A stretch of DNA of 64,000 bases, from assembly GCF_027587195.1 (NCBI RefSeq), contig NZ_JAPDDP010000043.1, positions 1 to 64,000 of the forward strand. Direction: 5' to 3'. This DNA comes from Solirubrobacter phytolaccae. GTDB lineage: Bacteria; Actinomycetota; Thermoleophilia; Solirubrobacterales; Solirubrobacteraceae. A program made the position numbers and the translations under genes. Positions 17,737 through 29,175 of the stretch are shown piece after piece. Each line of letters begins with the position of its first letter. Positions within the stretch are counted from its first letter, which is position 1. The notes under the pieces are model-generated. The model saw nothing but the letters and a program-made list of their open reading frames with translations, was not told the origin of the DNA and ran no database searches.

Positions 17737-20700
17737 CTAGGGGAGCTTCGCGGTTCGCGTCACCACCGTCCGCTCCTCCACGCCGTCATACACGACCAGC
17801 CGGATCTCGGTTCCCGGCCGGTGCGCGCGAATGCGCAGGACGGTCTCGGCGGCGCCGGTGACCGGGATGCCGTCGATCGAACGGATCACCTCGCCAGGGC
17901 GCAGCCTCGCACCAGCGGCTGGACTGCCGTTCTCGACGCCGCCGACGCTCACGGGCTCCCCCGGAGCGCCGACGATGTGGACGCCGAGGTAGCCGCGCGT
18001 GAGGAGCATCTGGTCGATGTCGCGGGCGGAGGTCAGGGCCGTGCCGACCAGGAGGAGCACCACGAACGCCGCGCACCACAGCACGCGGCGGGCGGTCCGC
18101 AACCCTTTGAGTGGCGAGAGCGTCATATCGCTCCCCAGCCACTCGACGCGGGCGGCGTCGTAGTCGCCGAGCTTGAGCCCATCGCCTCCGGATTCGGCCT
18201 CCCGCCCCGCCCGGTCAAAGACCGCCTGGCCGAACCGCTCGACCTCGGGAGCGGCGTCGAGGAGAAAGCAGAGCTCGGCGAGCAGCGGCCACAGCGACAT
18301 CGACGTCCGTCCCGCGCACGCCGCTGCCGCGGCACTCGCCCGTACCGCCTCGAACACGGCCGGGGACAGCACGAGCGGCGCTCCCGAACCGACGCACACG
18401 ACGCGGTCGGGCGTATCCGTCGCCGGCTCTGAGACGTGCTTGACCGCCGCCCGAGCATCGGGCAGATCCCGAGCGATCGGATCGACGTCCACCGCCGCTT
18501 CGAGCACGTCCGCCGCGGACACCGTCGCCTGCGCGCGCGCCGCCGCGGCCCTCAAGACCCGGTCCAGCGCGAGGTCCGCCGGGGCGCGGAAGCGCACCGG
18601 CGCGACGTCCGACGCATGCTCGCGAGCCGTCGGCATCCCGTCGGCGTCCCAGTGCTGCGGTCGGTCCTTCCGGGGGCGTGACGCTGGGGCGACCGTGGAC
18701 CACACGGCCAGACAGGCCCAGTCCATCGGCGGCGCGTCCCGCCAGCGCTCGCGCTCGGCACCCGGAGGCGGCAGCACGGCCTCGCGGACCGCGAGTGAAA
18801 GGGAGGCTCCGGTCGGCAGCCTGGCCGCGACGGAGTGGAGCAGCCGAACCACGCCGGTGGCCGGCGTCGGGGTGACGGCGCCGACCACGGTGCGCGCCCC
18901 GTTCATCAGACACGCGATCGGGAAGCCGAACGGCTCCTCGCCCGCATTCACCTCACCCGCACCGATCCAGCAATTGCCCAGGATCACCGCCGGCGGCCAC
19001 GGTAGGCGAAGCGCCGAGATGGCCGACAGCGAGGCGTCACCCATCAGGATCACGTTGTCGGTCACGCTTCTCCCGGCCTGTCCGTGGGCCAGGATGACGG
19101 CGAGGTCGGGCCGGGGCAGGGTGCCGAGCGCCAGCTCGAACTCGGCGCGCGTCGCGCTGGAGCGCACCTCACCGACCCAGGCCGGCGCCGCCGCTCCCGC
19201 CAGGACCCGTTCGTCGACCTGCGTGACGATCACGCCCGAACCCCCACGCTCGTCGCCCACGTCCGCGCTGAGCAGGGTCAAGGACGGTGTCAGCTGGACG
19301 TCGGCAAGCTCGGCGAGCGCGACGCCGTCCACGTGCAAGCCCGGGAAGGGCAGGCTGGCCAACGGACCGTCCGGGACGATGACGAGGCATGCTCGCCCAC
19401 CGTCCCGGGCGGCGGACCGGAGCTCGTCCCCGAGCGTTTCCGGCAGGATGGACCGGGCGAGCGCCGTCCACAGGTCATCCCAGAGCGGAACGCCGAACGC
19501 CGCTTTCACGGCCGCGTGACGACGGTCCGTGATCGCGCTCAGCAGCTCGCTCGCATCACCGTCGTCGATGCGCGAGAAGAACGTCGCCTCGCCGAGCGTG
19601 GGCGAGATCAGGACGCCGCCCACGCTCCAGCCGGCCCCGTCGCGCGAGCAGTGGTAGACGAGCCCGACGCCCGAGCCGAGCGCGCGTCGCACCGCCGCCA
19701 GGTCCACGGCGTCCAGCAGCAGCGCGGCGTCGCGAGCGTGCGTGAACCGCTCGACCGCGGCGCTCCGCGCGTCCGCGGCGACCGCCGCGTCGCTCTCGCC
19801 CTCCGCGCGCGCCAACTGCTCCAGCAGCGCGTCCAGCTCGTCGTCGGTCGCGAGCGGGTCGCCACGCAGCGCGGCGCCGAGCGTGGTCCGATGGACCGAC
19901 TCGAGCAGCCACATCGCCAGCTCGCCCGCCTTCTCGCGGTGCCAGACGACGTCCGTCGCGAGGCGCTCGAACATGGTCGTGTAGAGCCGACGCAGGCTCT
20001 GCACCCATGCGCCACGGCTGGCTCCCTGTCGCAGCGGACCGCGTTCCCGCTCGATCACCTCGAAGGACACGCGCACGAGGTCGAGGGCGTGCGACTCATG
20101 CTCCGATGTCCCGGCCCCGGCACGCAACAGGTTGCCGGCCGCGCGCACCATGACGTCGGCGCTGCGCGTCCGATCCTTGATGAGCGCGAACTCCTCGTAC
20201 GCGTCCGTGTAGGCATCCGCGGCGTCCAGCAGCTCACCCCGAGCGTCGTGGATGGAGCCGATGGTCTCGAGCGCCAGCCCGCGCACGCGTTGCATTCGCA
20301 GGTGCTCGTCGAACGCGAGCTCCGTCAAGGGGTGAACGGTCACGGCGCGGACCACCTCGCAGAGCGCATACGCGCTTTCCCGTGCCCCCTCGGGGTCTCG
20401 CTCCCTGGATGTCCGGACGTGTTGGAGCAGCTCCAGGGCGACGGCAGCCGGTCGTCGCTGCCAGACGAGCCGTAGCCAGCGGCGCCCCGGGTCAGGGTCG
20501 GAAGGCGGGGCGTCGTCGAGCTCGGCGTGCAGCTGGGCCGCGAGCGAGCGGAGCGCCGGCGGCGTTCGACGCGCCACGGCCTCGGCCTGTGCGATCGCGT
20601 CGGCGGCATCCCGGTCGCGGCCGACGCTCTGCAGGAACAGCGCATAGGCCGAGAGCACCGCTGGCTCCCGCGCGACGCGCGAGCACGCCAGCGCGTCGCG

Positions 20701-21414
20701 GCTCAGCCGCTCGGCGTCGACGATCCCCGACCGAGCCAAGCAGTGCTCGATCGCACGGGCGCGCACGTACGCCTCGGATCGAGGGTCGCCGTGTCGGCTG
20801 AACACCCGCACCGCCTCGTCCAGGGCCGCTTCGACGCCCTCACCGCTCGTGTAGAAGGTGCCGTCCGGGATCACCGTCGCGCACCACCGCAGGACCCGAA
20901 CGCCGTTCAGCGACCGCAGGGCGCGCAACGACGGCCTGAACCCGGCCCTCGTCTCGCCCCGCAGCCGAGCCCGATCACGCCACCGCGGGAGCCGCACTAC
21001 GATCAGCAACGCAACGGCCAGCGGAGCGAAGCGGCCCACGACGGTGCCCGGCGTGTCCCACAGCTTCAGGAACGCCGTTAGGGCGATGAGTGCCCCGGCG
21101 AGCAGGAGCAGCACGACCCGCCGCGGCGGCGATCGGTCGTCGTCGAGCGCGGCGCCGAGACGGAGACACGCCAGGGCGACCGCGCCGGCAAGGAGCGCCG
21201 GGAACCAGATCTGTGCTCCCGTCGCCACGATGGCCGCGTCGCTCGACCTCAGCCGCCGGCCGACCGTCGGATCGAACGCGACGTCGTTGAACTGCGCTCC
21301 GAAGAGCACCGCGAGCACGACGAAGATGCCGACGACCACCAGGTCATCCGCCCAGCTGCGCGCCACCGCTACGACGCGGTATGTCCGCGCGTCGAGGAAG
21401 GCCGCCGCCGTCAT
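17737..21414 (-). CDS. Membrane TPR-CHAT protease with C-terminal transmembrane PDZ domain
   Basis: The 1225-residue protein has four N-terminal transmembrane helices (about 15-150), a long helical TPR-like region (about 170-560), and a CHAT (caspase-like clan CD) peptidase domain (about 620-960). The catalytic pair is visible as His777 (VILAHGQAG) and Cys815 (ILGNCWIGAG). The domain also has the LVIVPDGPLASLPFPGL and FGFPIACLMNGARTVVGAV strands typical of CHAT. A helical region resembling Clp-N repeats follows (about 985-1090). Then come a fifth membrane helix (about 1110-1127) and a C-terminal PDZ domain (about 1141-1217, GYLGVHI...NGSPAAGARLRPGEVIRSIDGIPV) of HtrA type. Topology would put CHAT inside and PDZ outside. 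It is the last gene of a tight operon; its ATG overlaps the stop of the upstream CHAT gene (ATGA). The long in-frame extension upstream of 21414 lies inside that gene and is rejected. Confidence 0.88.
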   Translation of the reverse strand: MTAAAFLDARTYRVVAVARSWADDLVVVGIFVVLAVLFGAQFNDVAFDPTVGRRLRSSDAAIVATGAQIWFPALLAGAVALACLRLGAALDDDRSPPRRVVLLLLAGALIALTAFLKLWDTPGTVVGRFAPLAVALLIVVRLPRWRDRARLRGETRAGFRPSLRALRSLNGVRVLRWCATVIPDGTFYTSGEGVEAALDEAVRVFSRHGDPRSEAYVRARAIEHCLARSGIVDAERLSRDALACSRVAREPAVLSAYALFLQSVGRDRDAADAIAQAEAVARRTPPALRSLAAQLHAELDDAPPSDPDPGRRWLRLVWQRRPAAVALELLQHVRTSRERDPEGARESAYALCEVVRAVTVHPLTELAFDEHLRMQRVRGLALETIGSIHDARGELLDAADAYTDAYEEFALIKDRTRSADVMVRAAGNLLRAGAGTSEHESHALDLVRVSFEVIERERGPLRQGASRGAWVQSLRRLYTTMFERLATDVVWHREKAGELAMWLLESVHRTTLGAALRGDPLATDDELDALLEQLARAEGESDAAVAADARSAAVERFTHARDAALLLDAVDLAAVRRALGSGVGLVYHCSRDGAGWSVGGVLISPTLGEATFFSRIDDGDASELLSAITDRRHAAVKAAFGVPLWDDLWTALARSILPETLGDELRSAARDGGRACLVIVPDGPLASLPFPGLHVDGVALAELADVQLTPSLTLLSADVGDERGGSGVIVTQVDERVLAGAAAPAWVGEVRSSATRAEFELALGTLPRPDLAVILAHGQAGRSVTDNVILMGDASLSAISALRLPWPPAVILGNCWIGAGEVNAGEEPFGFPIACLMNGARTVVGAVTPTPATGVVRLLHSVAARLPTGASLSLAVREAVLPPPGAERERWRDAPPMDWACLAVWSTVAPASRPRKDRPQHWDADGMPTAREHASDVAPVRFRAPADLALDRVLRAAAARAQATVSAADVLEAAVDVDPIARDLPDARAAVKHVSEPATDTPDRVVCVGSGAPLVLSPAVFEAVRASAAAAACAGRTSMSLWPLLAELCFLLDAAPEVERFGQAVFDRAGREAESGGDGLKLGDYDAARVEWLGSDMTLSPLKGLRTARRVLWCAAFVVLLLVGTALTSARDIDQMLLTRGYLGVHIVGAPGEPVSVGGVENGSPAAGARLRPGEVIRSIDGIPVTGAAETVLRIRAHRPGTEIRLVVYDGVEERTVVTRTAKLP

Positions 21415-24400
21415 GCCGGGAGGTCGCCGCGGAGCGGCAGCAACGAGATGCAGACCGCTCCGAGCCCGTCCGCCACGGAAGGCAGCTCCGTCGACCGCAG
21501 GTACGCGAGCTGCGCGGCTCGCAGCGCCGCCGCCGGCGGCTGCGCCCGGGCGAGGTCCGTGCCGACCCTGGCGTAGAGACGCACGGTGGTCGGAGCCGGA
21601 TCGTCGTCGGAGGCACCCGTGATCCGGACGACCGCCGCGATCACCGTGGTGGCGCCTCGCAGCATGCACGAGATCGGGAGGCCGAGCGGCTCTCCGCCCA
21701 GTCGCGGGTCGATCCGGCCGATGACGCAGGCCGCGAACACGACCCAATCGGGCCACCCGTGCGACAGCGCACCGCCTGCGGAGAGCCAGCGGTCGTCCGG
21801 GAACTGCACCCGCTGCTGCAGGCCGGTGCCCTCCCCGTGCGTGCCCAAGTAGGCGCCGCCGTGGACCTGGGCGTCCAACCCGTCGGTGAACGCGTCACGG
21901 GTCTCGGCCCTGACGACCGACAGGCGTTCACGCAGCAGATCGAGCACCGGCTCCGACGCGTGCGCCAGGACGCTGTCGCGGCCCGCGCGTCTCCTCCAGA
22001 CGCCCGATCCGGCGAGATCGTAGGCCGGGACCAGCTGGATGACGGCCCGCTCGGCCAGCGGACTTCCAGCCACCGAGAGCGCGGCCCACGGAACACCGGC
22101 GACGTAGCCGTCGGGCACGATCAACAGCCGCTCCGGACGGTCGGGGTCGGCCATGACGAGTCGGTCGCGCAGGCCCTCGGGGAGCAGCGCGTCCGCCAGT
22201 TGCTGCCAGACCGGCCCGGAGTCGTCCCACGGGTAGTGCAGCTCACCACCACTGAAGCCTCGGCCCGCACGAAGCCGGCTCACGGCATGCTCCGGCCCAT
22301 ATGCGGGCCGGTCCACCCGGTGGACGCGCGCGCCGCCTTCGGGACTCACCCACACGCACCAGGTCGCGCCTCCAGGGGCGACGTTGAACGCCAGGACGTG
22401 TCCGTTCGCGCGTGCCACGGCCCTCAGGTCCTCGGGGTGGACGGCACGCTCCCGGAAGACGGCGGCAGCGACGGCCGACATCTCGCTGGCGACGTCCGCG
22501 TGCCCGTTGCTGTCCACGTCGATGCCCCGCAGGCGGTCGGCGACCTCGCGTGGAAACGACAGGTCACGTTCACTGAGCATCTGTGAGATGGCGCTGCGTC
22601 GTAGCGACTCGACGAGCACTGCAGCCGTGATGCCGGCCGTCGCGACGCCCGCCTCGTCCGCGCGCTCGAGCGCGCCGAGGGCCTGCTCATAGACGTCCTG
22701 CCCCGCGACGATCATGGCCATCCGCCGCTCCGTGCTGCTGAGCTGCCCGCGCCGCTGCTCCAGCACCTCGGTCCCCGCGGCGATCTCCCCGACCGCAGCC
22801 TGGAAGCGCCGGCGCTCGGCCAGCGAGCATCCGAGCAGGATCCGCGCGACGGCGCGCCAGTACGGATCTCCCTGCGTGGAGAGCCGCCGCAGCGCGTCCC
22901 TGAGCTTCGTCTCGGCACGGTCCGGACGTCCGGACTCCAGCTGGATCCGGCCGGCGAGCACCATCGCCCGTCCCTGCGCGCTGGCCACGGCACGCGCCGT
23001 CTGCGCGTCGAGCTCCTCCAGCTCGAGGCCGGGCGACGCATCCAGGTGCATGTCCTCGAGCCGTCGCAGCGCCGCTTCCCGATCCTTGTCGGCGTACATC
23101 GCGGACGCGACCACCAGCTCACGGTCGATCATCTGCGCGAGACCCGTCGCGACGACCCGAGGCGGCGGATGCTCCCTGAGCACCTCAAGCGCCTCGGCCG
23201 ACTCGTCGAGGCGCGCGTGGGTCTCAGCCAGCGCCACGGCGATCTGCCGTGCCTGCGCCGTGCGCGCCTTCGCCTGCTTCAGCGCCAGCGCCAGCTGGTC
23301 GCGGCCGAGCGCGTCCTGGCCCAGCTGCACCTGCAGCATCCCGACGGCGTAGTGCCCCGTGACGGTGAACGCGTGGTTCGTCTCTCCGAGACGATCGAGG
23401 CGCTTCGCAGCGTCGTCGAGTTGCCCGGCTTCGAGCTGCCACAGCGCGATTCTCGCGTTGCAGTCGGCGACCAGCGAAGGGTTGGCAGCGGCTTTCGGGT
23501 CAGCCGCCAGGTCCTCCAGCATCTCGATCGCCAGCGGCACGCGGAATGCCGCCGCCGCTTCGTCGGCCGCCAGCCAGACGTCGCGCAACCGCCGGGGTGT
23601 CCTGCGCGGCGGCGCCCAGGGCTCTCGCTTCGGGCCGCTGACGATCCAGCGCTCGAGTGAGGCCCGGATCTGGTGCGACGCGATGCCGACGATGATCCCC
23701 ACCGCGATCGCCCCGGCGGACTCGGGACCGATGGCCACGTAGGCGACGGCCGCGACCACGGCGGCGCGGACGAACGGCACCTTGCGGCGCCCGATGAGCA
23801 CGGCCAGAAGCACCGCCACCACCATCGGCGGCGCGTACCGCAGCAGCTCGCCGTCGATTGGACCCACGGGCGCGGGCCCGACGACGAACGCCGCTGTGAG
23901 CGCGGCGAGCACGATTCCCAGCACCCTCGCCCCCGCGCCGACAACAAGGTCGAGCACGTACGACCGCTGCAGCTCGCCACCGAAGTGGATGCCCTCCGCT
24001 CTGTCACTCCAGCGCCCGGTCACCGCCGAGCGCACGACGCGGAGGCCCGTCCGGACCATCGTGACGGGCCGCATCTCGGCCCACGCCGCGGCCACGAGCT
24101 GCGCGGCGAACGCCCACAGCTCGTCCCGTTCCTGCGTGTTCGTCGCGATGGCCGTCCGGAGCCGGAGCTCGGCTTCGTCGTACGTCCCGCCCTCGAGGTC
24201 GAGGCCGTCCAGCACGTGACGGCGGGCAACCGCGATTCGCTCGAGCCCTCGACGCCGGCACCCCCGGTCCCCGAAGCCTCCGGCCGCCGCGAGGACCACT
24301 TCGGCCAGCACGGCGCGTACGACCAGCAGAGCGCCGGCGACCGGAGCGAGGACGGCCAGCCCGCCGGCCAGCACCACGGCCGCTCCCGGCAGGCGAAGGA

Positions 24401-25544
24401 GCCGCAGCCAGGCCACCGCGACGGTGAGACCGACGACGCCCACCGGCGCGTCGTCGACGACGGCCGCCGCCACGATCGCGCCGACCGCGAGCACGGGACG
24501 CCCGACCGCCCAGAGCAGGCGAAAGCCCCGCGGAAGTCCGTACCAGGGCTCGAGCGGACCGCCGCTCGCCGTCCGCGCGGCCACTGGGTCCGGCTTGACC
24601 CGCGCGAGCACCGGAGCGACCGGAGCTGGGCGCCGGTCTCGTTTCCACCAGGCCAGCGCACGGACCCCGTCCCGCAGCATGGACGCGAGGACGACGACCC
24701 ACACCCCCGCTTCGAGGAACCGCAGCCTGATGAGCCGCCCCCGCGTGAGCACGGCCAGCTCCTCTCTCGGGAGCAGCTCGTCGGTGCCCGGAGGGAGCTT
24801 CATCGCCAACTCCGTCCGCGTCACCAGACCGCGTGCGGCGGCGCTCTTGCCGAAGGTCTGGAAGCCGGCCAGCAGTTGGCTCTCCGAGAGCGGCAGCGCG
24901 TCCCGCAGGACGGCGGTCTCCACCCATTCGTGAGCGGCCGAGTGCACGACCAGCACCGCGGAACCGGCCAGCCCGTCCGGGGTCAAGCGGATGTCGGCGG
25001 TCCGCACGTAGGCGTCTGCCAGCGCCACCGCCTCGCACGCGAACCGGGTGCAGTCGCCGCCTCGCGGATCCGCGAGGATCCCGCCGTCGAACGCGGCCCG
25101 CCCCGGGTCGGCACCGAGATGACGTCCCCAGAGCTCCGGTGCCTCGCTTCGGGCGAGCGCCACCATGTGCCAGGTCGAGATCGGCTCGTCGCCGGCGACC
25201 GCACGCAACTGGGCGTGGAGGTCCGGCGGCAGGAGGGCGAACGCGGACGCGAGCACAGCCGGATCGGCCGTCGGCCGGCGCAGGATGAACAGCAGGAGCA
25301 GCGACTCGTGCGTCAGCGCGCTCGCCGCGGCGACGATCGCCACCGGCCACTCGCCCAAGATGAGCGCCACGAGCGCCAGCACGACCGAGGCGACAGCGCC
25401 TTGCGCGACGACGAACATCGCGACGAACGCGACGGCGGTACGGCGCAGGTCACCTTCGAGCGCGCCCGTCACCGTCAGGATCAGCAGCGCGATCTCGACG
25501 AGGATGAACACCCTGCCGGGGACCCGTGAGCGAGACGCGGTCAT
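21411..25544 (-). CDS. Polytopic membrane TPR-CHAT protease
   Basis: The 1377-residue protein has roughly ten or more hydrophobic segments spread over residues 10-600, broken by a soluble segment (about 110-300). A TPR-like helical solenoid follows (about 635-1000; AIEMLEDLAADPKAAANPS, ALKQAKARTAQARQIAVALAE). A CHAT peptidase domain occupies about 1060-1377. Catalytic residues are His1236 (YLGTHGEG) and Cys1273 (VFAACVIGR), with LLIVPDGYVAGVPWAAL and LGLPISCMLRGATTVIAAV matching the CHAT core. It starts 10 bases after the Clp-N-like gene and overlaps the next CHAT gene by four bases. CHAT enzymes are caspase relatives that cleave protein partners on activation. The substrate here is unknown; neighbouring gene products or the paralogous CHAT protein are candidates by inference. 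Confidence 0.88.
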   Translation of the reverse strand: MTASRSRVPGRVFILVEIALLILTVTGALEGDLRRTAVAFVAMFVVAQGAVASVVLALVALILGEWPVAIVAAASALTHESLLLLFILRRPTADPAVLASAFALLPPDLHAQLRAVAGDEPISTWHMVALARSEAPELWGRHLGADPGRAAFDGGILADPRGGDCTRFACEAVALADAYVRTADIRLTPDGLAGSAVLVVHSAAHEWVETAVLRDALPLSESQLLAGFQTFGKSAAARGLVTRTELAMKLPPGTDELLPREELAVLTRGRLIRLRFLEAGVWVVVLASMLRDGVRALAWWKRDRRPAPVAPVLARVKPDPVAARTASGGPLEPWYGLPRGFRLLWAVGRPVLAVGAIVAAAVVDDAPVGVVGLTVAVAWLRLLRLPGAAVVLAGGLAVLAPVAGALLVVRAVLAEVVLAAAGGFGDRGCRRRGLERIAVARRHVLDGLDLEGGTYDEAELRLRTAIATNTQERDELWAFAAQLVAAAWAEMRPVTMVRTGLRVVRSAVTGRWSDRAEGIHFGGELQRSYVLDLVVGAGARVLGIVLAALTAAFVVGPAPVGPIDGELLRYAPPMVVAVLLAVLIGRRKVPFVRAAVVAAVAYVAIGPESAGAIAVGIIVGIASHQIRASLERWIVSGPKREPWAPPRRTPRRLRDVWLAADEAAAAFRVPLAIEMLEDLAADPKAAANPSLVADCNARIALWQLEAGQLDDAAKRLDRLGETNHAFTVTGHYAVGMLQVQLGQDALGRDQLALALKQAKARTAQARQIAVALAETHARLDESAEALEVLREHPPPRVVATGLAQMIDRELVVASAMYADKDREAALRRLEDMHLDASPGLELEELDAQTARAVASAQGRAMVLAGRIQLESGRPDRAETKLRDALRRLSTQGDPYWRAVARILLGCSLAERRRFQAAVGEIAAGTEVLEQRRGQLSSTERRMAMIVAGQDVYEQALGALERADEAGVATAGITAAVLVESLRRSAISQMLSERDLSFPREVADRLRGIDVDSNGHADVASEMSAVAAAVFRERAVHPEDLRAVARANGHVLAFNVAPGGATWCVWVSPEGGARVHRVDRPAYGPEHAVSRLRAGRGFSGGELHYPWDDSGPVWQQLADALLPEGLRDRLVMADPDRPERLLIVPDGYVAGVPWAALSVAGSPLAERAVIQLVPAYDLAGSGVWRRRAGRDSVLAHASEPVLDLLRERLSVVRAETRDAFTDGLDAQVHGGAYLGTHGEGTGLQQRVQFPDDRWLSAGGALSHGWPDWVVFAACVIGRIDPRLGGEPLGLPISCMLRGATTVIAAVVRITGASDDDPAPTTVRLYARVGTDLARAQPPAAALRAAQLAYLRSTELPSVADGLGAVCISLLPLRGDLPA

Positions 25545-25553
25545 CAGCGTGCG

Positions 25554-26879
25554 TCAGACGACCGCTTCGTCGCGTCCGTCACGGATGCGCCGGACGCGGG
25601 CGCGCAGCGCCTGCTGCTTGCGGCTGACCGCACGCGAGCGCACGGTGAGCAGCCGCAGGGTGACGGAGCGGAGCTCTTTGGCGCTGAGACGCACACCGGT
25701 TCGGGCGTGCAGGGTGCGACGTTCAGCCGAGATCTGCAGCAGCTCGGCACCGAGCGAGACGAAATGCGCAAGCCCCGCGAGCGGCGAGACGAGCACGGCC
25801 AGCAGCGCAGCGATCACCGTCCCGGCCGCAGGTCCGCTCTGCGGGTGGCCCGACCACACGGGCCACAGGAACAGGAGCTTCCACCAGTCGCCGTCGTCGT
25901 CGAAGGCCGCCTTCACGACGAGCACCGACGTCGTGGTCGTGAGGACGGCGTTCAGGATCGACGTCCGGAACACGCGCTCGTCCCCACTCGCACCCTCGAC
26001 ACGACGCAGCCGGAACTCGGCCGTCTGGGCCACGAGCTCGTGGTTCGTCAGGCCGATCCGTCGCAGGGCCTCCCGCACGCGGGGTGAGTCGACCAGCGCC
26101 GCGGCGACGATCGTCTCGGCCGGGTCGGGATCGCTGACGCCGAACCGCCGGCGTGCTCGCTGCAGCACGGTGTCCGTGTCGACGTCCTCGAGCTCACGGA
26201 GCTCGTGGTCCATCGAACGCAGCTCCTCCGGGTCGAGGAGCATCGCGTCCAGCAGGTCGTGCAGATCCTCGTCGTCGTCCGCCTGCTCGACGGCTCCGGC
26301 AAGCATCAGCAGCGCGCCCGGTGGCTGCTCGACCCAGTCGTGGGTGCGCACCGCATCCGGTGTCCGGCTGGGTCCGGTGAGCGCCCCCGCCAGCCGCGAG
26401 CGTTTGGTGATCGTGGGATCGAACCCCTCGAGCTCGACGTCGAGCAGATCGTCCTGGACGAGCGCCAGGAGGTCTCCGTGCGTCAGGTCCGAGCCGTCCA
26501 GGAGCGCGCGGCTGGCGCCGGCCTCCCGGTCGGCGAGCAGGCCCAGGGCGAGCACGCCCGGGGGCACCGGGACGAGGTGGTAGTCGGCCGCGATCTCGAC
26601 GGCCTTGCGCAGACCGGCGGACGCCGAGTGCGTGAGCGGCACGCGGTGCCATGTCCCGTCCGGGCGCTGGTCGGGGTCCGGGAACCGCTCGATGTCCGCC
26701 TCGTCGACGAAGTTGCCCTTCAACTGGATGTCGTCCCACGCCCCGGTGACATCCGCGGTGATCAGGCCCACGATGATGTCGACCGTCGACAGCGGCCGCC
26801 CGCCTCGTCTCGCCGCGGCGAACTCCAAGCCGTTCACGGTGGACGTGGCGAGCAGGACGCCGTCCAGCGGGTCGCTCAC
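25554..26879 (-). CDS. Clp-N-repeat-like protein with C-terminal membrane segments
   Basis: The 441-residue protein has two stretches that look like the two repeats of a Clp ATPase N-terminal domain: residues about 4-45 (LEFAAARRGGRPLSTVDIIVGL) and about 80-150 (SASAGLRKAVEIAADYHLVPVPPGVLALGLLADREAG...DLLALVQDDLLDV). The middle is acidic (EDLHDLLDAMLLDPEELRSMDHELRELEDVDTD). Hydrophobic segments at about 305-330 and 355-385 suggest membrane anchoring, and the tail is strongly basic. There is no AAA ATPase, so it is not a Clp unfoldase. Clp-N modules bind substrates and partners, which suggests an adaptor role in the CHAT operon; that is inference. It overlaps the upstream gene by four bases. 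The Clp-N assignment is from pattern only. Confidence 0.7.
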   Translation of the reverse strand: MSDPLDGVLLATSTVNGLEFAAARRGGRPLSTVDIIVGLITADVTGAWDDIQLKGNFVDEADIERFPDPDQRPDGTWHRVPLTHSASAGLRKAVEIAADYHLVPVPPGVLALGLLADREAGASRALLDGSDLTHGDLLALVQDDLLDVELEGFDPTITKRSRLAGALTGPSRTPDAVRTHDWVEQPPGALLMLAGAVEQADDDEDLHDLLDAMLLDPEELRSMDHELRELEDVDTDTVLQRARRRFGVSDPDPAETIVAAALVDSPRVREALRRIGLTNHELVAQTAEFRLRRVEGASGDERVFRTSILNAVLTTTTSVLVVKAAFDDDGDWWKLLFLWPVWSGHPQSGPAAGTVIAALLAVLVSPLAGLAHFVSLGAELLQISAERRTLHARTGVRLSAKELRSVTLRLLTVRSRAVSRKQQALRARVRRIRDGRDEAVV

Positions 26880-27895
26880 GGTGCGAACACCGCCAGGAGC
26901 ACGGAGGTCGGTGGCTCCGGGTCGTTCCAGTCGACGACGAACTTGAGCCGCCCGCGGCCCGGCGGGACGGTCGCTTCGGTCGTCAGCGTCGCCTCGGACG
27001 AGTCGATCACGTGCAGGACGATCCGGCTCCCCGGCGCCGGCCGCCAGGTGCCAGAGATCCAGATGCGCAACGCTCCGTCGCCGACCACGGCCCGCGCGTC
27101 GGCGTTCTCGGCGAGGAGCTCCTCGGCACCGGGGGGCAACGACAGCTTCACGGGAACGCTGTCCTCGTCCTCCCCCAGGACCTCGATCGGCGTGAGTCGC
27201 GCTCCCACGATCGCGGTCGCGGCGGTGAGGCCCTCCGCGAGCCGCGACAGCCGCTCCCCGACGACCCCCAGGACGCGAACGGGCGGGGGTGCCGCGTCGG
27301 CGAGCTGCGCCCCCGCGGGCTCCGGCTCGGTCACCCAGCGCGCGGTCACCTCGACCCCGATCTCGCGTTCGGCGGCGAACTGGAGCAGGAGCCCGCGGAT
27401 CGCCTCGGTCCGGGGGTGCTCAGGTGCCGTCAGCTCGCGCAGCGTGAACCACGCGGCCTCGGTGGCGAACTGGAGCGCGTCGCGGGCGATCTCCTCGCTG
27501 TCGACGAACTCCCGCGCGTGGGTGCGCAGCCAGCGCAGGCCCGCCGGGGCATCAGCGGACGCCGTGCCCGAGATGGAGCCGGCCAGCGCCTCGGTCTCCG
27601 GATCGCGCATCACCAGGGCGCGCAGCTCGAAGCGGGCGGACCGTGAGTGCTGCGCCGCTCGACCGAGGTGCTCGAGCACGCGGTCGTCCAGCGGGCCGCC
27701 GAGCCCTTGCCGCCAGGCCGCGAACCATTGCCATTCCGCCAGCGCCAGCCAGCCCAGCTCCTCGCGCCCGATCTCGGCTTCGACGAGCCCGGCGAACACA
27801 GCATCGTCGGCGACGGCGGCCTGAAGGTCGATGGCGTAGTTCTCGTCGCTCGCGGCGCGCCGGATCAGCTCGGCCGCCACCGGAATCAGGCTCAT
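26876..27895 (-). CDS. Hypothetical protein of the CHAT operon, helical N-terminus and beta-rich C-terminus
   Basis: I do not recognise this 339-residue protein. Its first half is helical with many Glu, Ala, Trp and Leu residues (LVEAEIGREELGWLALAEWQWFAAWR; SARFELRALVM). A Glu-rich helical region follows (FVDSEEIARDALQFATEAAWFTLREL). The last 90 residues look like beta strands with GALRIWISGTWRPAPGSRIVLHVID and a terminal KFVVDWNDPEPPTSVLLAVFAP. No signal, membrane helix or catalytic motif is visible. It overlaps its neighbours on both sides by ATGA junctions, so it is translated with the CHAT operon. An adaptor or sensor role is inference from context. Confidence 0.75.
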   Translation of the reverse strand: MSLIPVAAELIRRAASDENYAIDLQAAVADDAVFAGLVEAEIGREELGWLALAEWQWFAAWRQGLGGPLDDRVLEHLGRAAQHSRSARFELRALVMRDPETEALAGSISGTASADAPAGLRWLRTHAREFVDSEEIARDALQFATEAAWFTLRELTAPEHPRTEAIRGLLLQFAAEREIGVEVTARWVTEPEPAGAQLADAAPPPVRVLGVVGERLSRLAEGLTAATAIVGARLTPIEVLGEDEDSVPVKLSLPPGAEELLAENADARAVVGDGALRIWISGTWRPAPGSRIVLHVIDSSEATLTTEATVPPGRGRLKFVVDWNDPEPPTSVLLAVFAP

Positions 27896-28659
27896 GACGG
27901 GACCCGCTCGATGGCCCCGGTGGCGTATGCGTGGCGCGCCCGGTCGGCCAAAGCCGTGACCGCGGGCGCGGCTCCGCTGATGCGCAGGTAGGGGGAACGC
28001 GTGAGCGCGGGCGCGTCGACGACGAAGTCCTCCTCCACGAGCAGCGTGAGCCGAGCGTCCTGGAAGCGGTTCGAGAACCCCAGCGCCAACGTCCCGGTCG
28101 GGGTCCAGTCGCTGACGGCGAGCCAGGTGTCCGTCCGGTTCGTGTACCAGCCGAGCGCGTCCACCTCGTCGGGTGTGAAGAGGACGACGTCGATCTGGAA
28201 CTGCTCCCGAAACAGGTTCCGCAGCTTGTGCAGCCAGAGGTTCGTGTGCACCGTCAGCACGGCATCGCGATAGGCGGGCTGCACCCGCAACCAGCGCAGG
28301 TAGAGCTCGCGATTGGCCGGGTCACGCGCGTCGAACGCGCGCCATCCCGCCGGGTCGAAACGCGCGAGGACGCCGGCCCGGCCGTAGATCGCCGTGGAGA
28401 GCGGCTCCTCGACGCCGGTGACGTAGACGCCACGCCCCCAGGTGTAGTTGTCCTGGCCGATGTACAACCCGCCGTTGGGGCCGCGATAGGCGCCGGCCCA
28501 CCGGGACCCGACGTACTTGACGACGAGCGGTGAAGCGCCGCCTCCCGGGTGCTCCAGGTTCGCCGACACGAAGTCGTCCCACGCGGGAGCGGAGGCCGCG
28601 ATCGCATCGTCGATCCGCGTGCGGAGCGCTCGCGGCAGGAGTGCCGCGCCCGCGGTCAT
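27892..28659 (-). CDS. First gene of CHAT operon; unrecognised protein with possible ADP-ribosyltransferase-like segment
   Basis: The 255-residue protein has no signal or membrane helix. Residues about 48-93 (YRGPNGGLYIGQDNY, GRGVYVTGVEEPLSTAIYG) recall the GxYF(T/A)...S...Y strand-helix of ADP-ribosyltransferase/PARP folds or RES-type NAD-using toxins. The usual catalytic set (H-Y-E or R-S-E) is not confidently placed, so this is only a resemblance. Later blocks include YLRWLRVQPAYRDAVLTVHTNLWLHKLRNLF and DVVLFTPDEVDALGWYTNRTDTWLAVSDW. The ATG at 28659 is an estimate: no clear ribosome site precedes it and the frame remains open upstream. It overlaps the next gene by four bases. An effector or sensor role in the CHAT cassette is inference. 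Confidence 0.65.
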   Translation of the reverse strand: MTAGAALLPRALRTRIDDAIAASAPAWDDFVSANLEHPGGGASPLVVKYVGSRWAGAYRGPNGGLYIGQDNYTWGRGVYVTGVEEPLSTAIYGRAGVLARFDPAGWRAFDARDPANRELYLRWLRVQPAYRDAVLTVHTNLWLHKLRNLFREQFQIDVVLFTPDEVDALGWYTNRTDTWLAVSDWTPTGTLALGFSNRFQDARLTLLVEEDFVVDAPALTRSPYLRISGAAPAVTALADRARHAYATGAIERVPS

Positions 28660-28746
28660 GCGGGATGGGACCAGCACGAGCAGCGACGAGACGACAGCAC
28701 CAACCTCTTCCCTCCGTGGAACACTGAGCCAGTCTTGAGCGCGAGG

Positions 28747-28775
28747 ACTGTAAACGGTCGGTACGCGCAAGGCAA
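28747..28775 (-). promoter_or_regulatory. Candidate sigma70-type promoter of the CHAT operon
   Basis: Reading leftward, TTGCCT (28775-28770) and TACAGT (28752-28747) are separated by exactly 17 bases. Each matches four of six bases of the TTGACA/TATAAT consensus. The start of transcription would fall near 28740, about 80 bases before the first gene of the operon. The same interval must also hold the promoter of the divergent YqeY-like gene. Confidence 0.4.
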
Positions 28776-28800
28776 GCGCGATCCGGCTATACCGAGTGCC

Positions 28801-29175
28801 TTGAAGCTCCTCGAACCCCAAGCGCTCCGTGACGCGCTCCGCGCCGACCTGAGAACCGCCATGAAGGCGCGCGACAAGGAGACGACGTCGGCGCTGCGGA
28901 CCGCGCTCGCCGCGATCGACAACGCCGAGGCGGTCGTCGCGCCCGACCACGTCGAGGCGCCGAGCAGTGAGCACGTCGCCGGCGCGCGGGCGGGCGTCGG
29001 CTCGACCGAGGCCGAGCGCCGCGCGCTGTCGCTCGACGACGTGCACACGCTCCTGCAGGCGCAGATCGACGAGCGCGCGCAAGAGGCGGACCGCTACGAC
29101 GCGCTCGGCCAGGCCGATGCCGCCGTGCGGCTCCGGCGCGAGGCCGACGCGCTCCGCGGCTACGTCCCCCGCTAG
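28801..29175 (+). CDS. YqeY/GatB-tail-like protein
   Basis: The 124-residue protein matches the YqeY opening: LRADLRTAMKARDKETTSALRTALAAIDNAE near residues 12-45. It ends with the helical part LTLDDVHTLLQAQIDERAQEADRYDALGQADAAVRLRREADALRGY (L-S in place of L-T at its start). YqeY domains are related to the tRNA-binding tail of GatB and are thought to bind tRNA; a direct enzymatic role is not known. Full YqeY proteins are about 150 residues, so this is a short member. The TTG at 28801 best fits the family start, with an ATA-containing TATACC box 8 bases ahead that could give a nearly leaderless message. It shares CTAG with the convergent lipoprotein stop. Confidence 0.7.
   Translation: MKLLEPQALRDALRADLRTAMKARDKETTSALRTALAAIDNAEAVVAPDHVEAPSSEHVAGARAGVGSTEAERRALSLDDVHTLLQAQIDERAQEADRYDALGQADAAVRLRREADALRGYVPR

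Follow-up and report, generated by a model that had tools for sequence, protein, structure and literature searches.

A CHAT-family protein with a predicted outside PDZ domain in a putative membrane-associated conflict operon of Solirubrobacter phytolaccae

Closest described systems and the Solirubrobacter locus

A CHAT protease can be under allosteric control and cleave a partner, as in Csx29-Csx30 (PMC10028731), and in published conflict systems a peptidase stands beside sensor or effector tails that vary and in some cases comprise a transmembrane (TM) helix and an extracellular domain (PMC7159879, PMC8195603). The EACC1 systems, which are prevalent in actinobacteria and for which membrane sensing and proteolytic deployment have been proposed, have a partner whose variable C-terminus can be a TM helix with an extracellular domain, a periplasmic binding protein (Kaur et al. 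2020, PMC7159879). In EACC2-caspase proteins, the variable C-termini include a PDZ domain, or a TM helix with an extracellular CHASE2 domain (PMC8195603). The CATRA ternary systems, a name used in PMC8195603 and PMC12657218, are conflict systems described as depending on a caspase.

The locus described here lies on a stretch of 64,000 nucleotides, hereafter the window, which comprises positions 1-64,000 (forward strand) of contig NZ_JAPDDP010000043.1 from Solirubrobacter phytolaccae (GCF_027587195.1). Five genes on the minus strand form an operon spanning 28659 to 17737 and are listed in operon order, with P0001 as the last gene:

27892..28659, minus strand: P0006, variable first gene, 255 aa, an orphan and candidate effector
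26876..27895, minus strand: P0004, accessory protein, 339 aa, with the C-terminal ~185 aa conserved in a Thermoleophilaceae operon
25554..26879, minus strand: P0003, Clp-N-like domain plus two TM helices, 441 aa, with profile similarity to ClpC-type N-domains
21411..25544, minus strand: P0002, multi-TM TPR-like CHAT protein without a PDZ domain, 1377 aa (PF12770, E 1.2e-10)
17737..21414, minus strand: P0001, CHAT-TM-PDZ protein, 1225 aa, a single uninterrupted ORF

Like the EACC1 two-gene membrane systems, P0001 has a caspase-superfamily peptidase on a membrane-associated protein (PMC7159879), but there the caspase occupies the N-terminus and is coupled to a one-TM EACC1 protein, whereas the CHAT domain of P0001 follows four TM helices and a TPR-like region and the protein ends in a PDZ tail. 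Pfam searches found no EACC1 or EACC2 component in the operon, no TRADD-N component was recognised there, and P0004 has no TM helix by hydropathy. The PDZ domain of EACC2-caspase proteins is described as intracellular (PMC8195603), whereas that of P0001 is predicted to lie outside. The GAP1-N2 GTPase systems share the membrane layout of P0001, with four TM helices at the N-terminus and a single one at the C-terminus, sometimes followed by a PDZ domain (PMC7159879), but their cytosolic core is a GTPase instead of a CHAT protease. Csx29 of the Cas7-11 CRISPR system likewise combines TPRs with a CHAT domain bearing the His/Cys dyad, but belongs to an RNA-guided complex and has no TM helix or PDZ domain (PMC10028731).

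The original prediction for P0001 compared it to DegS, the logic of which it was thought to reverse. The PDZ type is common to P0001 and DegS/HtrA. In DegS, the trypsin-fold protease and the PDZ domain lie on one side, which makes the analogy a loose and weak one. Pfam finds no trypsin domain in P0001, and the outer membrane, the source of the proteins that give the DegS signal, is not expected in an actinobacterium of this class, judging from taxonomy.

Domain architecture and predicted topology of P0001

P0001 starts with four TM helices (residues 25-142) and a TPR-like/helical region (143-560), which lead into the CHAT region (~561-912); this is followed by a linker (913-1105), a fifth TM helix (TM5, 1111-1129) and the HtrA-type PDZ domain (1139-1219). 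The parts that carry the argument are as follows:

18679..19734, minus strand: CHAT region of P0001, residues ~561-912, PF12770, predicted catalytic His777 and Cys815
18028..18084, minus strand: TM5 of P0001, residues 1111-1129, mean hydrophobicity 2.15 (GES)
17740..18000, minus strand: PDZ domain of P0001, residues ~1139-1225, found by Pfam and predicted outside

The originally predicted CHAT domain is borne out by the Pfam match to PF12770 (E 9.4e-16, 58.5 bits; curated cut-off 24). In an alignment of P0001 with 11 further CHAT domains, six of them also from the S. phytolaccae genome itself, His777 (in LAHG) and Cys815 (in LGNC) fall on the His/Cys dyad (12/12). By profile and intact dyad, P0001 is assigned to the CHAT family, and peptidase activity is predicted. 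A profile of the CHAT family searched against the PDB returned just TPR-like noise and no solved CHAT structure. Two CHAT proteins of the S. phytolaccae genome (L061 and L062) have long C-terminal regions that look NTPase-like by eye (GKS/GKT motif).

The PDZ tail matches both PF13180 (31.1 bits, cut-off 27) and PF00595 (27.9 bits, cut-off 23.2), with E-values of 2.9e-7 and 3.1e-6, and its GYLGV start and SPAAGARLRPGEVI core are present as first described. Among the 28 nearest PDZ matches examined in genomes of the same order, 23 belong to HtrA-like proteases, their ORFs carrying a GNSGG-type trypsin motif. The profile scores above cut-off, the proximity to HtrA PDZ domains and the GYLGV carboxylate-loop motif together identify the domain by sequence as HtrA-type. 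AlphaFold2 models from single sequences are of low confidence, with a mean pLDDT of 43 for residues 915-1225 and 58 for residues 1129-1225, and are given no weight for or against the fold or the topology. The codon-position GC is even across all P0001 domains from end to end, so the PDZ tail carries no sign of a frameshift, frame break or read-through artefact. In a related genome, a short protein with a TM helix and a PDZ domain (L016:1501-1872, a 219-aa frame) lacks the trypsin motif; TM-PDZ tails thus occur apart from HtrA in that genome.

Hydropathy places hydrophobic helices at residues 25-43, 66-84, 100-118, ~124-142 and 1111-1129, in agreement with the four N-terminal helices and the one near 1110-1127 proposed before. 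TM5 is the strongest of these (2.15) and TM4 the weakest (1.24). Lys and Arg residues number 3 in the N-tail, 3 in loop 1, 4 in loop 2 and 0 in loop 3, with 7 in the first 20 residues past TM4, 4 in the last 20 before TM5 and 1 between TM5 and the PDZ domain. Under positive-inside scoring, the PDZ domain is outside in all eight top-ranked helix combinations, and the charge bias fits. Called from hydropathy and charge only, the topology with the CHAT domain inside and the PDZ domain outside, as originally proposed, is the favoured one.

The helical stretch behind the CHAT domain (~915-1105) had also been taken as Clp-N-like, which does not hold up. Comparison of residues 915-1105 with Clp-N profiles by hhalign gives E-values of 0.54 and 0.73, and shuffled versions scored equally or better in 372/2000 and 205/2000 cases. 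We therefore reject a Clp-N domain inside P0001 and treat residues 913-1105 as a linker of unassigned fold.

The operon and its relatives

A genuine Clp-N-like domain sits in the neighbouring P0003. This gene, the second CHAT gene and the operon as a whole were overlooked by the original prediction. The genes are joined by 4-base overlaps or, in one place, a 9-base gap, and the start ATG of P0001 overlaps the end of P0002 (ATGA). P0002 is a distant paralogue of P0001 (31% identity over 434 aligned positions). Both CHAT domains have intact His/Cys dyads, and the linker, TM5 and PDZ tail are confined to P0001, for which the best reading is a CHAT copy that has diverged and ends in a membrane-crossing PDZ.

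Within the operon proteins, only CHAT and PDZ exceed the Pfam cut-offs, PADLOC defence models gave insignificant matches only, and no sigma or anti-sigma factor was recognised by Pfam. P0003 has no Pfam Clp_N match; the profile of its five-member family aligns to the ClpC N-domain with an hhalign E-value of 6.2e-7 over 136 columns, and genome searches with a profile of P0003 and a homologue matched the N-termini of Clp ATPases. Between its two TM helices, P0003 has a conserved DWWK...SGP region. P0006 has no match in Pfam, PHROGs, the PDB, viral contigs, plasmids or genomes. By eye it resembles ADP-ribosyltransferases (GRGVYVT..STAIYG), a likeness that no search backs.

A homologous operon without a PDZ copy is present in a Thermoleophilaceae MAG (JAEMSX010000014.1; L041, the contig of L031), where an unrelated first gene is accompanied by a P0004 homologue, a TPR protein, a P0003 homologue (P0009, 37% identity) and a P0002 homologue (P0010, 30% identity over 1359 positions). 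The P0004 homologues align locally with a z of 14 (0/300 shuffles), and the N-terminal ~155 aa are not conserved. Alignment shows no homology of P0006 to the first gene of the MAG operon. The first gene of G054, P0007, looks nucleotidyltransferase-like only on inspection by eye; neither the Pfam nor the PDB search supports this, and we rejected the assignment.

In Pseudonocardia oroxyli (L042), a P0003 homologue (E 1.4e-13) precedes a CHAT protein that matches P0001 with E 4.8e-20, and this pair adjoins genes for a CATRA-trypsin protein, CATASP, another CHAT and another CATRA protein. The cluster (L042:3618-18980) reads CATRA-trypsin (with a sub-threshold EAD1 match), CATASP, Clp-N-TM, CHAT, second CHAT and CATRA-TM. 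CATRA and CATASP genes stand beside the Pseudonocardia Clp-N/CHAT pair only; neither has a Pfam match in the window operon, and CATRA-N is missing from the S. phytolaccae genome and from the Thermoleophilaceae MAG. P0003 and these homologues adjoin a membrane CHAT gene in 3/3 loci (the window, the MAG and P. oroxyli), and no P0003-type partner was found in viral contigs. A NACHT NTPase with several TM helices (L053:1987-5109, minus strand) carries a C-terminal Clp-N-like domain of the P0003 family, in a genome of the same family as the Pseudonocardia relative, which hints at the P0003-type domain serving as an adaptor in conflict proteins. Actinospica durhamensis (L043) has a short CHAT frame.

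The operon has a GC3 of 0.86-0.91, compared with about 0.95-0.97 in several flanking genes, and the Clp-N partner P0003 is absent from six congeners; the lower GC3 and this absence are as expected for an acquired DNA module. At the operon flank, a frame on the plus strand (28549-29175) has a YqeY-like match of only 34 residues against a family length of 143, and this flank was not found in the congeners.

No second CHAT-TM-PDZ protein was found among 232 genomes of the order, 399 of the class, contig scans and plasmids. As the surveys cover a sample of genomes and short exact patterns were used for the contig scans, absence of the architecture elsewhere is not proven. Two candidates were rejected, the 1115-aa PDZ frame of G085 being an HtrA and the CHAT protein of G190 an ordinary TPR-CHAT. 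Since the architecture was seen once among the genomes sampled, conservation cannot back a function for the PDZ tail.

Possible roles of the outside PDZ domain

We give an even chance to the reading that the five genes are a membrane-associated conflict operon with two CHAT proteases at its core and the PDZ domain of P0001 as an outside input arm; in outline, the operon resembles a system for self-defence or cell death. The CHAT domain of P0001 would face the cytoplasm, and the PDZ domain outside would bind an envelope partner or the exposed ends of peptides. Its occupancy would reach the CHAT domain by way of TM5 and the linker, or would gather the CHAT proteins. Active CHAT would then cut a partner from the operon (P0003, P0004, the second CHAT protein or the product of the first gene), and the cleavage would free an effector that damages the cell or arrests it, for which P0006 is a candidate. 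P0001 would be a copy specialised for input, gained by an operon with one CHAT gene like that of the Thermoleophilaceae MAG. The steady CHAT, Clp-N and P0004 parts, the swapped first gene, the sporadic distribution and the conflict-gene neighbours of one relative fit a conflict module. The original proposal that the PDZ domain senses outside and switches the CHAT domain is plausible, published caspase-TM-extracellular fusions being a parallel. The full scenario, in which it senses the C-termini of peptides that stem from a phage, a competitor or damaged envelope proteins, and switches the cytosolic CHAT domain through TM5 with release of an effector, is tentative, and we consider it rather improbable.

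The PDZ domain may also be a mere anchor or scaffold, keeping P0001 at a site by binding an envelope or membrane protein at its C-terminus and carrying no signal, with activation coming from inside through the TPR-like region, P0003 or P0002. We regard this as possible, if on balance doubtful: PDZ domains are commonly scaffolds and related CHAT proteins do without one, but HtrA-type PDZ domains usually regulate proteolysis, cytosolic partners would be out of reach for a PDZ domain placed outside, and the linker and TM5 are peculiar to the P0001 copy. Activation from within its complex is the case for the TPR-CHAT protein Csx29 (PMC10028731), in keeping with such an internal switch. Csx29 also cleaves a sigma-factor inhibitor (PMC10028731), which makes a transcriptional output possible for a CHAT protease and, together with the HtrA quality-control proteases as the nearest PDZ relatives and the Clp-N-like domain of P0003, typical of Clp unfoldases, would suit envelope proteostasis or stress signalling. 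Here the PDZ domain would detect misfolded extracytoplasmic proteins and the CHAT domain would cut a cytosolic regulator, with no killing. Such a role is unlikely given the sporadic distribution and absence from congeners, the replaced first gene of the related operon, the conflict genes adjoining the Pseudonocardia homologue and the operon's want of a recognisable sigma or anti-sigma factor. A wrong topology call would place the CHAT and PDZ domains on the same side, with the PDZ domain presenting substrates to the CHAT domain as in HtrA. The call is drawn from hydropathy and charge and includes the weak TM4, but same-sidedness would require that TM5, the strongest helix, which separates the two domains, does not cross, and it runs counter to all eight best helix combinations; we hold it to be highly improbable.

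Caspase with an intracellular PDZ domain, caspase with a TM helix and a periplasmic binding protein or CHASE2 domain, and GTPase with four TM helices, a further TM helix and a PDZ domain have been published. A CHAT domain joined through a TM helix to an outside PDZ domain was absent from the literature searched and from the genomes sampled; the parts are known individually, and their combination in P0001 appears to be new. The Clp-N/CHAT pair is common to Thermoleophilia and Pseudonocardia and is combined with a first gene that can be exchanged. It is a candidate for a membrane-associated conflict module of which no description was found in the literature searched.

To our knowledge, the triggers of bacterial CHAT/caspase conflict systems are mostly unknown. 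The ligand type of PDZ domains, peptide C-termini, is well understood, and a CHAT protease wired across the membrane to a PDZ domain would open the question of the trigger to direct testing. In Csx29, the well-studied case, it is RNA within the cell that is sensed (PMC10028731). If the outside-in reading is true, P0001 would correspond, as a single bacterial protein, to a death receptor coupled to a caspase.
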